This document shows, in pieces, positions 26,646 to 33,205 of a DNA stretch of 64,000 nt. The number at the start of each line of letters is the position of its first letter. Within the stretch, counting starts at the first letter, position 1. A program made the translations under genes and the position numbers. The notes beneath the pieces were generated by a model. That model was not told the DNA's origin. It did not search any database and saw only the letters and a list, made by a program, of their open reading frames with translations. This stretch comes from Roseomonas marmotae (GTDB taxonomy: Bacteria > Pseudomonadota > Alphaproteobacteria > Acetobacterales > Acetobacteraceae), in assembly GCF_017654485.1 (NCBI RefSeq), contig NZ_CP061091.1, forward strand, positions 586,501-650,500, in the 5' to 3' direction.

Positions 26646-27521
26646 TCAGCGGCACATCAGCACGGGGATGTCCGCGTTCTCCAGCACATGCCGGGTCACG
26701 CCGCCCAGGATCAGCTGGCGCAGGCGGGAATGGCTATAGGCGCCCATGCAGAGCAGGTCGGCCCCGAAATCCCGCGTCGCGCCCAGCAGGCCGGCGCCCA
26801 CCTCACGCGTCTGCGGCTTGAAGGGCGCGGCCTCGGCGGTGATCTCGTGCCAGCGCAGATAGGCCTGGATGCCCTCCACTGTAGGGCCACGCCGCTGGTA
26901 GTCGTCGGAATAGAGCAGCCGCACCTGCTCCGCGCGGTGCAGCCAGGGCAGCGCGGCATTGATGGCGGCGGCGCTTTCGGCGGTGCCGTTCCAGGCACAG
27001 CAGACGCGGGTGCCGATGGTGGCCGGCGGCAGGCGCGGCGCGATCAGCACCGGGCGGCCGGAGTCGAAGAGCACGGCATGCAGCGCGTCGGAGGAGGAGA
27101 CATCGTCATCCGCCTCGGGATGCGGCACCACCGCCATGTCGTAGAGGCGCGATTGCTGCGCCACCACATCCTCCTCCCGTCCCGCGATGCTCTCGAAGGA
27201 CAGGGTGGGGCCATCGGCCTTCAAGGCGCTTTCGGCGCTCAGCGCGATGGTGACGTCACGGCCCTGCACGAAGCGCTCGAACAGCGCGTGCACGCGATTG
27301 GCGCGCTCCCCGCTCTCGCGCTCGGTGGCCGCCATCATCTCCTCGATCATGGCGCCGGAAAGGCCTTCGCCCGCCAGCGGGGCCACGTCCCGCGCATCCA
27401 CGCGCACGTGCAGGCAATGCACATGCGCGTTCCAGATGCGCGCGACCATCAGCGCCGTGTGCAGGGCCGCCTCTCCGGCGGCGGTACCCGTCAGCGGCAG
27501 CAGCAACCGGCGATAAGCCAT
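26646..27521 (-). CDS. Universal stress protein, tandem UspA domains
   Basis: 291 residues. The N-terminal Usp domain starts YRRLLLPLTGTAAGEAAL; the second ends ILGGVTRHVLENADIPVLMC, matching the usual GSVxxxVlxxaxxPVLv end. The ATP-type G-2x-G-9x-G(S/T) loop is best seen in the second half (LGGVTRHVLEN). A stress-linked cytoplasmic protein. AGGAG precedes the start. Confidence 0.88.
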   Translation of the reverse strand: MAYRRLLLPLTGTAAGEAALHTALMVARIWNAHVHCLHVRVDARDVAPLAGEGLSGAMIEEMMAATERESGERANRVHALFERFVQGRDVTIALSAESALKADGPTLSFESIAGREEDVVAQQSRLYDMAVVPHPEADDDVSSSDALHAVLFDSGRPVLIAPRLPPATIGTRVCCAWNGTAESAAAINAALPWLHRAEQVRLLYSDDYQRRGPTVEGIQAYLRWHEITAEAAPFKPQTREVGAGLLGATRDFGADLLCMGAYSHSRLRQLILGGVTRHVLENADIPVLMCR

Positions 27522-27654
27522 GGCTTGGCTCTCCTAAACCCGAGGCATGGGCGCCGCGCAGGCGCCCTCGAAGCGGAAGCTATCACGGAAGTGCCGCCGC
27601 CGTCTGCATCCGCGCGCTTCAGCCCAAGCTGCTCCGCGCGGCGCAGGCCGGATG

Positions 27655-28284
27655 CTACCGCAGCACCGCCCCATGCTGGCGCAGGAAATCCAGCAGCGGC
27701 AGCATCGGCAGGCCCAGGATGGCCGCATGCTCACCCTGCACGGCGCGGAAGAGATGCATCCCCAGGCCCTCCAGCCGGTAGGCGCCGACGGAATAGGTGA
27801 TCTCCTCTCCCTCCGCCGCCAGATAGGCCTCCAGGAATTCATCGGAGAATTCCCGCATGGAGAGGCGGCAAGTGGCCGCGTGGTGCCAGATGCGCGCGCC
27901 ATGCCGCCAGCAGACAACGGCCGAGACCAGCTCATGCGTGCGGCCGCGCAGCGCCCGCAGCTGGGCACGGGCGCCCTCCAGCCCCTCGGGCTTGTCGAAC
28001 CAGCGGCCCTCGCAGACCAGCAAGGAATCGGCGCCGATCACCAGTGCCTCCGGCTCCTCCCGCAGCATGCGGCGGGCCAGGCGTTCGGCCTTGGCATCGG
28101 CCAGCAGGGTCGCGGCCTCGGCCGGCGGCAGGCCTTCCTCCAGCGCGGCTTCCTTCAGGCTGGCCTCGTCCACCGCGGCGGGCATGGCGGCGAAGGACAG
28201 CCCGGCCGCCCGCAGCAGCGCCGCCCGGGTGGCGGAGGAGGAGGCGAGCACCAGCGGCGGCGGGGCGGGGGTCATGACGCCCAT
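27655..28284 (-). CDS. maf: Maf family nucleoside triphosphate pyrophosphatase
   Basis: 209 residues. N-terminal motif LVLASSSATRAALLRAAGL, catalytic Asp in VIGADSLLVC and the C-terminal LFRAVQGEHAAILGLP. It hydrolyses non-canonical or modified NTPs; the subfamily (dTTP/UTP or m7GTP type) is not settled by eye. The start ATG shares a base with the ppsR stop. Together with ppsR this is the conserved gene pair on one side of the candidate origin. Confidence 0.93.
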   Translation of the reverse strand: MGVMTPAPPPLVLASSSATRAALLRAAGLSFAAMPAAVDEASLKEAALEEGLPPAEAATLLADAKAERLARRMLREEPEALVIGADSLLVCEGRWFDKPEGLEGARAQLRALRGRTHELVSAVVCWRHGARIWHHAATCRLSMREFSDEFLEAYLAAEGEEITYSVGAYRLEGLGMHLFRAVQGEHAAILGLPMLPLLDFLRQHGAVLR

Positions 28285-29150
28285 CAGGCGCCGATGCCCC
28301 TGGGGGCCGGGCCGACCGCGCCCCGCCGGGCATGCCAGGCTTCCATCAGCTGCAGCACGGTGGCCGCCGTTTCCTCTATCGAGCGCCGGGTGACATCGAT
28401 CACCGGCCAGCCCCGGCTGGTGCAGAGGCGGCGGGCGGCCAGGATCTCGGCCTTCACCGCTTCATGGTCGATGTAGTCATTGGTGTCCTGCCGTACTCCG
28501 CCGGCGCCGATGATCTTCAGCCGGTGCCGGCGGATATCGATCAGCGCCGGCACGTCGATGGTCAGCCCGATCACCGGGCAGGGCGGGTTGTCCAGTTCCG
28601 GCGGCAGGGGGGAGGTCGGCACGATCGGCACATTGGCCGCCTTGATGCCCCGGTTGGCGAGGTAGAAGCAGGTCGGTGTCTTGCTGCTGCGGGAGACGCC
28701 GACCAGCACGCAATCCGCCTCGGCGATGCCGGCGACCCCCTGGCCGTCGTCATGCGCCAGCACGTAGTGCATGGCGTCGATGCGGCGGAAGTAGTCGGCG
28801 TCCATCACATGCTGGGCGGCGCGCTTCTCCCGCGCCTGCTCGCCGATCTGCGCCTGGAGCAGGTCGATCACGGGGTCCAGCACGGACATGCAGGTCACGC
28901 CCATCTGCTTGCAGGCCTCCTCCAGCGAATGGCGGAGGGAGCGGTCGACCAGGGTGAAGAGCACCGGCCCGGGCTCGGCCTTGATGCCTTCCACCACCTG
29001 GTCCAGTTGGAAGCGCGAGCGCACCAGCGACCAGCGGTGATAGACCACATGCGGGTCCGGAAAGCGCGACAGCACCGCCCTCGCCATGGAGTTCAGTGTC
29101 TCTCCGGTACTGTCCGAGACGAGATGCAGGTTGAAGGAGCGGTTCGGCAT
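28284..29150 (-). CDS. ppsR: PEP synthase/PPDK regulatory kinase-pyrophosphorylase (DUF299)
   Basis: 288 residues. N-terminal [13 protein letters not shown], the P-loop [10 protein letters not shown] (151-160) and [15 protein letters not shown] identify the bifunctional family that phosphorylates (with ADP) and dephosphorylates a Thr of PEP synthase or pyruvate phosphate dikinase. The start at 29150 follows a G-run. It faces away from the candidate replication origin. In Rickettsia and Caulobacter a gene I believe to be of this family (RP001) flanks the chromosomal origin opposite hemE. Confidence 0.94.
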
Positions 29151-29371
29151 CGGCCCCCCAGGTCCGAAGGCGGTGGGAAGAGCGGGGATGGGTGTGGAAT
29201 TCGTGGACAACTGCAAGCCCTGATTAAGCCCCCTGGGGGAATCGGGGATAGCGGGTACAGTTTGGACCTCTCAGGGGCTTTTCATGGGAATGATCGGTTC
29301 GAATCACCGATAACCCACGCGACTCGCCGGAATCCCTGCGAGTCGCACCCGGCCCGTACGGTGGAGCGGGC

Positions 29372-29380
29372 TGTGGATAA
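29372..29380 (-). promoter_or_regulatory. DnaA box 1
   Basis: TGTGGATAA, the exact complement of TTATCCACA. Confidence 0.8.
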
Positions 29381-29404
29381 CGTGTACAGCCGCTTGCGTC
29401 CACA

Positions 29405-29413
29405 TTATCCACA
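29405..29413 (+). promoter_or_regulatory. DnaA box 2
   Basis: TTATCCACA, perfect consensus, 24 nt from box 1 and facing the opposite way, about 20 nt from the AT-rich stretch. Confidence 0.8.
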
Positions 29414-29469
29414 GGGCCTATCTACCCCACCAACTTTCTTAAAGACTCTTTTTCTATGAAAGAGGGCCC

Positions 29470-30513
29470 ATGGACACTGTGCAAAAACCCCTTCTGCGGG
29501 CCCTTTCCGGCGAGGCGCTCTGGCCCCCGCCCTTCTGGCTGATGCGTCAGGCCGGGCGGTACCTGCCCGAGTACCGGCAGCTGCGTGCCCAGGCCGGGGA
29601 TTTCATCGCCCTCTGCACCACCCCCGCCCTGGCGGCCGAGGTGACGCTGCAGCCGCTCCGCCGCTACGGCATGGACGGGGCCATCCTCTTCAGCGACATC
29701 CTGATGCTGCCCTGGGCCATGGGGCAGGCGCTGCGCTATGCCGAGGGTGAGGGCCCGCTGCTGGAGCCCATCCGCGATGCAGAGGGCCTGGCGCGGCTGG
29801 ACCCCGCCGCCATGCGCGCCCGCATCGCGCCGATCCTGGAGACCGTGGTGCGGGTCCGGGCCGGGCTGGCTCAGGAAGCGCCGGGTGCCGCGTTGATCGG
29901 TTTCGCCGGCAGCCCCTTCACGGTCGTCTGCTACATGGTGGAAGGCCGTGGCGGCGGCGAATTCGCCCAGGCCCGCCGCCTGGCCTATGCTGATCCCGCG
30001 CTCTTCGGCCGCCTCATCCGCCTGCTGGTGGACAGCACGGTGGACTACCTGCTGGCCCAGGCCGAGGCGGGGGCCGAGGCGCTGATGCTCTTCGACAGCT
30101 GGGCCGGGCTACTGCCGCCCAGCCAGTTCCGCCGCTGGTGCATCGACCCCACCGCCGCCATCGTCCGCGGCATCCGCAAGGTGCGGCCGGATATCCCGCT
30201 GATCGGCTTCCCGCGCCTGGCGGGGCCGCTGCTGCCGGAATACGCGGCGCGCACGGGCGTGAACACGGTGGGGATGGATACCGGCATGGACCCGCGCTGG
30301 GCCGCCGCCAACCTGCCTGCGGATCTCGCCTTGCAGGGCAACCTGGACCCGCAGGTGCTGGTGGCCGGCGGTGATGCGCTGGAAGCCGAGGCGCGCTCCA
30401 TCCTGGCGGCGATGCGCGGGCGGCCCTTCATCTTCAATCTGGGCCACGGAATCGTGCCGCCAACGCCGCCGGAGCATGTCGCTGCCCTGACGAGGGTGAT
30501 CCGCATGGGATGA
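29470..30513 (+). CDS. hemE: Uroporphyrinogen decarboxylase
   Basis: 347 residues. Family signatures LMRQAGRYLPEYR and GFAGSPFTVVCYMVEG are intact; the catalytic Asp lies in ILFSDILMLP. It converts uroporphyrinogen III to coproporphyrinogen III in heme synthesis. AGAGGG precedes the ATG. hemH and rho, which commonly follow in origin regions of this class, do not follow here. Confidence 0.97.
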   Translation: MDTVQKPLLRALSGEALWPPPFWLMRQAGRYLPEYRQLRAQAGDFIALCTTPALAAEVTLQPLRRYGMDGAILFSDILMLPWAMGQALRYAEGEGPLLEPIRDAEGLARLDPAAMRARIAPILETVVRVRAGLAQEAPGAALIGFAGSPFTVVCYMVEGRGGGEFAQARRLAYADPALFGRLIRLLVDSTVDYLLAQAEAGAEALMLFDSWAGLLPPSQFRRWCIDPTAAIVRGIRKVRPDIPLIGFPRLAGPLLPEYAARTGVNTVGMDTGMDPRWAAANLPADLALQGNLDPQVLVAGGDALEAEARSILAAMRGRPFIFNLGHGIVPPTPPEHVAALTRVIRMG

Positions 30514-30514
30514 C

Positions 30515-30540
30515 CTCAGGCGGCCTTCCAGCCGCCTGAG
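30515..30540 (+). terminator. Terminator-like hairpin after hemE
   Basis: 10-bp perfect stem CTCAGGCGGC / GCCGCCTGAG, 6-nt loop, 1 nt after the hemE stop; no T-run. Confidence 0.7.
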
Positions 30541-30616
30541 AGGGCCTGTGGCGGCGCGGGGGAGACCCCCGCCGCCTCTTCCCGCGCCACGGAGACGGGG
30601 CGCGGGCCGGGCAGCG

Positions 30617-33205
30617 CTATTTCGTGGCGGGCTTGGGCGTTATCTTGAGGCTGGGCAAGGGCACCGGCTCCGCCGCCTCGCTTCCCTTCGGCGGCGAGGC
30701 AGGGTCGGGGGTGGAGGACCTGGAGCGTTGGGCGGCGATGCGCTCCATCTGCTGGCGCAGCTCCGGCGCCTCGTGCAGCAGGCTCTGGAAATCGGCCTTA
30801 TCCAGTTCCAGCAGGTGGCAGAAGCTCGTGGCATGCGCGGAGGCACCGCGGCGGTGCCGGTTGGCCAGAAGCTCGGTCTCCCCGAAGATCTCGCCCGCCC
30901 CCAGCACCACCTCCTCCGTGCCCGAGGCATCCTCCTTCAGCGAAACCTCGCCACGGCTGATCAGGAAGGCCGAACGCGCCCATTGGCCCTTCCGGTAGAT
31001 GACTTCCTCCGGCACGGCGAAGCGGGTGGTCACCTTCATCGCCAGCTCATACAGCAGGGCTTCCGACAGGCCGGAGAAGGCCTTGAATTCCTTGAGGCGG
31101 AGTTCAATGCCGGACTGGATGTTAAACTGCAGCGGCCGCGCGATCTGGCGGCGCAACTGCTCCATCCCGCGCAGCAGATCGTCCTCCAGTTCCTGCCCGA
31201 TCAGAGATTCCTGGCGCAGGCTGGAATATTCCTCGGATTCCATCCGCAGGCCGATCTGCCGGAGCAGCCGGCTCTCCAGCGCTTCGGAATAGCCGGGATA
31301 CTGCAGGCGCAGCACATCCAGCGCGTCCTGCAGCATGTCCTGCCGCCGCGCCACGATGCCGGCCACCACCTCCGTCACGCGCTGGCCCAGCACCGGCTCC
31401 ATCCGCTGCCGCATGAAGCGGCTCATGGACATGGAGACGAGATGCGTCAGCAGCAGCGTCTCGAACCGCTCGGCCATGCTGTGGGTCAGCGGCCTGTCGA
31501 TGCGGAACCTGTGGTGCAGCCATCGTGCCAGGTTGAAGCGCAGCGTGGGCTGCAGCCGGCGGCGGGCCGCCTGTATATAGCCGTGCCGCCCTTCGTTGCG
31601 GGCGCCGTCAATCATGCTCTCGGCGGTCCGCAGCAGGTTCTCCATGACGCGGCGGGACAATGTCCGGTTCTCGAACATCTCCAGCAGCACGGAACGTTCC
31701 TGGCTGGCATAGGTGATCAGGCCCAACGTCACGCGCTCACGGTCGCCGATGGCGGTATCGAAGGTATTGGCGGCCGTCTCCTCCTTCACCCGCCGCTCGT
31801 AGCTCTCCAGCACATAGCCGGTGGCATGGGAGGAGATGCCGAGCTCGGCCGCCGTGTCGCGCAGCCTGTCCCGCACCTCCCCCAGGCCGATGGCGACGAC
31901 CTGGTTGCGCAGCGCGTCGTCGGAGGCGGAGAGCTGGTTGAGCTTCAGCCAGCGCACCAGGAAGCGCAGCGTGGTGCCGTTCACCAGCAGGGTGAAGAGC
32001 ACATAGCCGGTGGCGAGGATGGCGACGAAGCGCTGGATCTGCTCCGGCACCGCGTCATGCTCGGTGACGGAGAGCGCCATGGCGAGGGTGATGGCGCCGC
32101 GCAGCCCGCCCCAGAGCATGGTGACCTTGGCCGGGGTCGAGACGCGCTGGGAGAGATGGGTGTATTCCAGCACCGGCAACAGGCCGAAGAGCACGATGGC
32201 GCGCGCCACCAGCGCTGCCACCACCATCACCCCCACCAGCACCAGGTCCCATCCCGTGGCGCCCAGCAGCAGCTTGGGCACCAGCATCGAGGCGAGCACG
32301 AAAACCAGGGAGCTGGCCCAGAAGGAGAGCTGGTCCCAGACCTCCTGCAGGAAGTGCCAGCTCTGCGGCCGGAAGATGGAGGGGCCCTTGGCGCTGACCG
32401 TCAGCCCCGCCACGGCGGCGGCCACCACGCCCGAGACATCCAGGAATTGCTCGCAGACGATATAGGTCAGGTAGGGCAGCGCGAGGGTCAGCGTGACCTC
32501 GGCCGTCCGGTTGCCGCCGAGCCAGGGAATGGCGAGCAGCATCAGCCGGGCGGCGACGATGCCAGCCAGGATGCCGCCGAGGAAGGAGACGAAGAAGATC
32601 GAGACGGCATCGGACAGGGCGAGCGACTGCTGGCCGGTGATCTGCGCCAGCATGAGGGTGAAGATGGAGATGGCCGCCGCGTCGTTCAGCAGGCTCTCGC
32701 CTTCCACCAGCCGGGTGAGGCGGCTGTTGGCGCCGACCTCGTGGAAGATGCCGACCACGGCGGAAGGGTCGGTGGTGGCGACGATGGCGCCGAGCATCAG
32801 GCAGACGACGAGCGAGGCCCCGGAGATGGGCGCCAGGGCGAAGCCGATGGCCGCCGTCGTCACCACCACCGCCACCACCGCCATCATCAGGACCGGGGCC
32901 CAGTCCCGCGCCAGGCGGCGCACATCGATGGACAGCGAGCCCTGGAAGACCAGCAGGGGGAGGAAGATGTAGAGGAAGGCGTCCGAATCGATCGGGAAAT
33001 GCAGCAGCGACTGCGCCGCCTCGTCGATGAACGGATTGTTCGAGTTGTTCAGCACCACTGCGCCGCCGCCAGCCAGCAGCACGCCGACCCCGGCCAGCAG
33101 CACGGTGGAGGAGAGCTTCATCTTGCGCGCCAGGGGCTGGATGGCGCTGATGACGATCAGCATCAGCGCGGTGGCCAGGATGGTGTCGGGAAGGCGGTTC
33201 AGCAT
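30617..33205 (-). CDS. Na+(K+)/H+ antiporter (CPA1) with C-terminal cyclic-nucleotide-binding domain
   Basis: 862 residues. About 410 N-terminal residues form a CPA1 antiporter membrane domain with some 12 helices, including the cation-site text ATTDPSAVVGIF and GESLLNDAAAISIF. A long cytoplasmic region follows. The C-terminal domain (about 706-815) is a cyclic-nucleotide-binding fold with the phosphate cassette GEIFGETELL and RRGASAHA. The layout is like plant SOS1 exchangers. Ion exchange probably responds to cAMP or a related ligand. The tail (about 820-862) is disordered. Confidence 0.9.
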   Translation of the reverse strand: MLNRLPDTILATALMLIVISAIQPLARKMKLSSTVLLAGVGVLLAGGGAVVLNNSNNPFIDEAAQSLLHFPIDSDAFLYIFLPLLVFQGSLSIDVRRLARDWAPVLMMAVVAVVVTTAAIGFALAPISGASLVVCLMLGAIVATTDPSAVVGIFHEVGANSRLTRLVEGESLLNDAAAISIFTLMLAQITGQQSLALSDAVSIFFVSFLGGILAGIVAARLMLLAIPWLGGNRTAEVTLTLALPYLTYIVCEQFLDVSGVVAAAVAGLTVSAKGPSIFRPQSWHFLQEVWDQLSFWASSLVFVLASMLVPKLLLGATGWDLVLVGVMVVAALVARAIVLFGLLPVLEYTHLSQRVSTPAKVTMLWGGLRGAITLAMALSVTEHDAVPEQIQRFVAILATGYVLFTLLVNGTTLRFLVRWLKLNQLSASDDALRNQVVAIGLGEVRDRLRDTAAELGISSHATGYVLESYERRVKEETAANTFDTAIGDRERVTLGLITYASQERSVLLEMFENRTLSRRVMENLLRTAESMIDGARNEGRHGYIQAARRRLQPTLRFNLARWLHHRFRIDRPLTHSMAERFETLLLTHLVSMSMSRFMRQRMEPVLGQRVTEVVAGIVARRQDMLQDALDVLRLQYPGYSEALESRLLRQIGLRMESEEYSSLRQESLIGQELEDDLLRGMEQLRRQIARPLQFNIQSGIELRLKEFKAFSGLSEALLYELAMKVTTRFAVPEEVIYRKGQWARSAFLISRGEVSLKEDASGTEEVVLGAGEIFGETELLANRHRRGASAHATSFCHLLELDKADFQSLLHEAPELRQQMERIAAQRSRSSTPDPASPPKGSEAAEPVPLPSLKITPKPATK

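Follow-up and report, generated by a model that had tools for sequence, protein, structure and literature searches.

The chromosomal replication origin (oriC) of this bacterium, a Roseomonas-like representative of the Acetobacteraceae, very probably lies in the intergenic junction between ppsR and hemE, where DnaA would bind an inverted pair of DnaA boxes, the neighbouring T-rich stretch immediately upstream of hemE would be opened by DnaA, and replication forks would depart in both directions. This reading agrees with the initial annotation, which had placed the origin at hemE and the window astride it, and it is supported by the conservation of the junction, its enrichment in DnaA boxes, an unstable stretch and a genome-scale switch of strand polarity. 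Comparison supports the location well, skew only roughly, and the location is unproven. The origin of a Roseomonas-like chromosome would thereby be put at a distance of 616 kb from the start of the record. The location is as expected for an alphaproteobacterial origin, and the make-up of its control sites is unusual.

The ppsR/hemE junction and its conservation

The window, i.e., the whole 64-kb stretch of DNA that was analyzed (C1:586501-650500), belongs to a genome of 4,833,053 bp in 10 contigs, with contig C1 accounting for 3,565,232 bp. Since ppsR starts at 29150 on the minus strand and hemE at 29470 on the plus strand, the strandless junction comprises positions 29151..29469 (319 bp; C1:615651-615969). 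The two divergent flanking genes, assigned from their open reading frames and Pfam, are ppsR (28284..29150, minus strand), encoding a kinase-pyrophosphorylase of COG1806/DUF299, and hemE (29470..30513, plus strand), encoding uroporphyrinogen decarboxylase; this divergent pair is a feature of the hemE-COG1806 type of alphaproteobacterial origin. The closest hemE matches, among those listed, come from Roseomonas or Pseudoroseomonas. The GC content of the junction is 0.586, compared with 0.713 for the window. A search of positions 27500-31000 for known RNAs yielded no Rfam match at gathering thresholds. That maf, aroE, coaE, dnaQ, secB and mltA also lie in the window, as had been stated from the sequence, was confirmed by Pfam for all of them (dnaQ as a DnaQ-type exonuclease).

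According to an excerpt of PMC1914354, Caulobacter has its mapped origin at the hemE-COG1806 junction, and Rickettsia its assigned one, in agreement with what the initial annotation had stated about these genera. The Caulobacter crescentus origin (Cori) and the Rickettsia origin share with the junction their flanking genes, DnaA boxes and an AT-rich stretch (PMC1914354). No open-access paper was found that describes a Roseomonas origin with a DnaA box.

A sequence scan located two perfect DnaA boxes in the junction, TGTGGATAA at 29372-29380 on the minus strand and TTATCCACA at 29405-29413 on the plus strand, which are the inverted pair with 24 nt between them noticed previously. The weaker third box reported alongside them corresponds to CGTGGACAA at 29202-29210 on the minus strand, with two mismatches, so that the junction holds a DnaA-box cluster as known from hemE-COG1806 origins. 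In the whole 4.83-Mb genome there are only 11 perfect boxes, two of them in the junction; with 11 such boxes, some pair would fall within 33 bp by chance with a probability of about 7.5e-4 (our own arithmetic). When the junction was shuffled 20,000 times at the mononucleotide level, two perfect boxes never occurred together, and boxes with at most one mismatch number three in the 64-kb window, including the junction pair. Next to the pair lies the 40-bp stretch with the lowest nearest-neighbour stability of the window (29418..29457, no strand), the least stable 60-bp stretch being found at 29404. This is the AT-rich stretch between ppsR and hemE that had been pointed out before; it matches the AT-rich element of hemE-COG1806 origins and is a candidate unwinding element. 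Its core CTTAAAGACTCTTTTTC is invariant in the window and the 10 nearest listed relatives, and in the alignment with these 10 relatives the box at 29405-29413 occupies the same position with near-identical letters (one mismatch in L103). The boxes, the stability minimum, the conservation of both and the polarity switch in the neighbourhood can be regarded as established from the sequence; from them we infer DnaA binding, opening and initiation at the junction.

The junction was further compared across 80 hemE loci, taken from the matches listed (more exist). A divergent ppsR is present at 69 and absent at 11 of them. Boxes with at most one mismatch occur 123 times in the 23,638 bp of the 69 listed junctions, versus 43 times in 433,067 bp of flanking DNA, and perfect boxes 33 times versus not at all, although these loci are related by kinship and thus not independent. 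The relatives' junctions were measured about 3 bp short because the ppsR query was one codon too long. At least one box with at most one mismatch was found in 62 of the 69 listed junctions, at least two in 40, and at least one perfect box in 30. The seven listed junctions without any such box, which like the 11 loci lacking divergent ppsR speak against the reading, include three from Belnapia, among them the Belnapia locus used for synteny.

The 11 listed loci without divergent ppsR include four from Rhodopila, as well as L169 with only about 260 bp upstream. At ten hemE loci without divergent ppsR upstream (L138, L140, L142, L145, L146, L148, L151, L152, L154, and L170), a near-consensus box within 600 bp was seen in L154 only, and the origins of these ten may be located elsewhere.

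A gene-blind search for the pattern TGTGGATAA-N(5-35)-TTATCCACA in 299 genomes of the order recovered the inverted pair in 13 of them, the window's own genome included; it lies beside hemE in 12 of the 13, and in 11 also beside ppsR. At the class level, 50 of 57 genomes yielded hemE; a divergent ppsR is present at 22 of the 29 non-own loci examined, and 19 of these 22 junctions contain a box deviating by at most one mismatch. As separate observations, genome G162 (L183) is the sole one of the 13 in which the inverted perfect pair is situated away from hemE, ppsR and dnaA within the 3-kb locus, and a 2.0-Mb Acetobacteraceae genome, G003 (L178/L188/L189), carries 14 perfect boxes packed into about 270 bp on the upstream side of hemE, its 3-kb hemE locus showing no ppsR.

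Strand polarity and alternative origin locations

Strand polarity was sampled in 83 stretches of 20 kb from C1, amounting with later additions to 1.775 Mb (about half of the contig). In this sample the cumulative GC skew reaches its maximum near 2.37 Mb and runs through a broad trough at about 566-681 kb, and the chromosome-wide polarity flips within 612-695 kb and again near 2.37 Mb, with the junction located at 616 kb. A search of four stretches sampled around the terminus for a dif motif gave no hit (2,370-2,400 kb lying outside the sample).

Four finer estimates were obtained. Leading-strand octamers were learned from the distal arms, for example GGGCAGGG (235 to 54) and GGGGAGGG (93 to 6); they resemble AIMS octamers given for Acetobacter pasteurianus 386B in an excerpt of PMC3751514. 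With 40 octamers the minimum falls at 612,363, a point near 650 kb being about 3 units worse, and since the octamer scores overlap, these log units are overconfident. The raw local GC-skew minimum is at C1:680,824. The motif GGGNAGGG switches at 656-659 kb, and by our own arithmetic the junction fits less well by about 11.5 log units. Third-position skew of 1,107 predicted genes, after correction for gene strand, has its optimum at 695 kb, with 675-700 kb within 3 units and 610-620 kb, where the junction lies, 6.7 log units worse. Relative to the junction, three of the four estimates are thus displaced rightwards by 40-79 kb (1-2% of the chromosome), and as all four span 612-695 kb, they agree with the neighbourhood to an accuracy of about 2% of the chromosome. 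In place of the GC-skew minimum that had been expected at the junction, a broad trough spans its neighbourhood.

An active origin situated 40-79 kb rightwards, at C1:650-700 kb in the direction of mnmE-gidA-parAB, with the hemE junction as an ancestral remnant or helper site, would account for these three estimates and for the presence of parS at 705 kb. It is nevertheless improbable, since the interval from 616 to 727 kb holds just one box of at most one mismatch, at 649,285, since the boxes of the junction are conserved among relatives, and since the segment between hemE and mnmE is out of its ancestral arrangement. In Belnapia sp. F-4-1, hemE-hemH-HAD-hemJ-rho-ferredoxin-mnmE-gidA-gidB-parA-parB-holA are found within about 20 kb (names from open reading frames). 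In the window's genome, this ancestral hemE-mnmE cluster is, judging from the gene positions, broken up: hemE lies at 616 kb, hemH, HAD and hemJ at 302.5-304.7 kb, rho at 309.3 kb, ferredoxin-mnmE at 701.5-703.3 kb, parS at 705 kb and parB at 707 kb, so that parS and parB are 89-91 kb from the junction, which counts in its favour. In the same-genus genome G233, mnmE-gidA lies about 30 kb to the other side of hemE and is inverted; its polarity sample (64 kb in 8 stretches) contained too few motifs for a decision. Such reshuffling of neighbouring genes may blur the local skew and account for the offset. Against this, and against the junction as origin, speaks the polarity of Belnapia, which in a coarse sample likewise switches on the right-hand side of hemE. 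As the ppsR/hemE junction was kept while its surroundings were reshuffled, skew alone would misplace the origin. Directly downstream of hemE, at the synteny break, the window carries a gene for a Na/H exchanger with a cyclic-nucleotide-binding domain (30617-33205, minus strand), which had no match in the loci of the 80 listed relatives, of which up to 3 kb downstream was covered each.

The position of the boxes and the T-rich stretch directly upstream of hemE would also fit a role in DnaA-dependent transcription of hemE or ppsR only, with the origin at some unrecognised place. This is very improbable, because the chromosome-wide polarity switch falls in the neighbourhood of the junction, and the same junction serves as the mapped origin in Caulobacter (excerpt of PMC1914354). 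The least probable alternative, an origin beside dnaA at the start of the record, was rejected: the record does start 283 bp ahead of dnaA, and Ori-Finder put the oriC of Acetobacter pasteurianus 386B near dnaA (excerpt of PMC3751514), but this place, 616 kb from the junction, has no box cluster (with one mismatch allowed, the first 6 kb contain no box and the last 7 kb two isolated ones, the final 232 bp being outside the sample) and no polarity switch, the polarity being the same on both sides.

GANTC, CtrA and IHF sites at the junction

The junction contains six GANTC sites, the target of CcrM. One of them (29444..29448, no strand) lies, in the alignment, inside the candidate unwinding element, and five more start at 29239, 29301, 29321, 29330, and 29340 (span 29239..29344, no strand; sequence scan). 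An inverted repeat with 9-bp arms (29319-29327 and 29338-29346; 29319..29346), read by eye, has a GANTC in each arm. Six sites were reached by 18 of 20,000 shuffles, and three further places in the sampled part of the same genome equal the density of 6 per 319 bp.

Over the 69 listed junctions, GANTC amounts to 15.1 per kb compared with 1.02 per kb in the flanks and therefore forms a methylation-site cluster above background, the background being the flanks as a whole, genes and intergenic DNA together; GANTC is generally enriched in intergenic DNA of alphaproteobacteria, as stated in an excerpt of PMC8116508. At least nine sites are present in 14 of the 69 listed junctions, two of which are longer (L127, 874 bp; L155, 626 bp), and eight listed Roseomonas/Pararoseomonas junctions hold 11-14, the maximum being 14 in about 330 bp; two of the 69 have none. 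In 400-kb samples of two GANTC-rich genomes, taken without the junctions, at most five sites were found per junction-sized window, versus 14 and 10 at the junctions. At the class level, GANTC reaches 6.1 per kb over 22 junctions. In 49 of the 69 listed junctions the 40 bp of lowest stability include a site, versus 27.9 expected from uniform placement, a difference that carries weaker weight because of relatedness and composition. Conservation of the GANTC columns is no more than suggestive, since the columns were chosen for being GANTC.

Full CtrA sites (TTAA-N7-TTAA) were found in none of the 69 listed junctions; in the window junction no site occurs with at most one mismatch and two occur with at most two. 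Cori, in contrast, has five CtrA sites, and some Anaplasmataceae origins are likewise described without them (excerpt of PMC1914354). Sites with one mismatch were found four times in the listed junctions, in 4 of the 69, and three times in all flanks, so that degenerate CtrA sites may be present. For IHF, the window junction did not match a strict pattern, which degenerate sites would escape.

By its motif content, the control-site make-up is thus unusual in being GANTC-rich and devoid of full CtrA sites. It might be speculated that CcrM methylation, instead of full CtrA sites, controls the Acetobacteraceae hemE origin, a GANTC array left half-methylated by the passing fork delaying re-initiation; such methylation control of initiation is a guess, which we consider rather unlikely to be correct. 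The array would be dense and usually have one site within the unwinding element, with the 9-14-site arrays of Belnapia and Roseomonas relatives as its fullest form and the six-site origin of the window as a milder one. CcrM (with a RAMA domain) and GcrA are encoded in the window's genome, and a CcrM-like protein was found in 48 of 48 relatives searched (drawn from 50 of the 80 loci, with L102 and L103 outside this set), so that its presence is uninformative on GANTC density. At the E. coli oriC, the Dam/SeqA system acts on numerous methylation sites, of which one lies in the unwinding element. By analogy, the GANTC array would work like this system while having evolved separately; the likeness would be one of working only (many methylation sites, one in the unwinding element), as the E. 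coli oriC differs from the junction in its methylase and its flanking genes. An excerpt of PMC3973325 reports several GANTC motifs for Cori and close relatives, compared with which several of the Acetobacteraceae relatives studied here are much denser, and a normal DNA content for Caulobacter without CcrM in minimal medium. No GANTC array at Acetobacteraceae origins was found in the open-access literature, which was surveyed mostly by title. An origin that is GANTC-rich and without full CtrA sites lets CcrM control of initiation be tested outside Caulobacter, in which CcrM proved dispensable.

DnaA-box clusters elsewhere on the chromosome

A count of boxes per window, as proposed in the initial annotation, puts the junction among the top places of the sampled half but not alone: with two boxes of at most one mismatch per 319 bp, it ties with C1:1,967,612, 311,773, and 178,559. 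When degenerate boxes are scored in the same half, the region at 1,967 kb, upstream of uvrC, reaches 11, the junction 8 and the region at 312 kb 7. The denser cluster named beforehand as evidence against the junction is thus absent beside dnaA but does exist, to the letter, at the uvrC site, where polarity does not switch.

The uvrC site (G000 C1:1967281-1968115; L055:12281-13115) is an 835-bp intergenic region outside the window with two perfect, one one-mismatch and eight two-mismatch boxes in about 570 bp and one GANTC. As an origin it was rejected, since GGGNAGGG counts there are 7:0 and polarity is unchanged. In 9 of 17 genus genomes the site recurs next to uvrC, with 1-6 boxes that deviate by at most one mismatch; in this comparison the second query contained stops because of a wrong reading frame, and the name folB is an open-reading-frame reading only. 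Possibly, it is a DnaA titration or reactivation site.

The plsC site (G000 C1:311640-312005; L019:11640-12005), also outside the window, carries boxes (one perfect, at 311987) and GANTC sites, and is flanked by plsC-like and DUF2125-like genes near rho. It was likewise rejected as an origin, as it has boxes but is minus-rich on both sides, with unchanged polarity. It was matched in 12 of 17 genus genomes, with the boxes kept beside plsC and direct boxes about 214-250 bp apart. In E. coli, datA and DARS are DnaA-box clusters away from the origin. The uvrC and plsC clusters would resemble them as conserved DnaA-box clusters of this kind, a likeness by analogy for which no homology is claimed.
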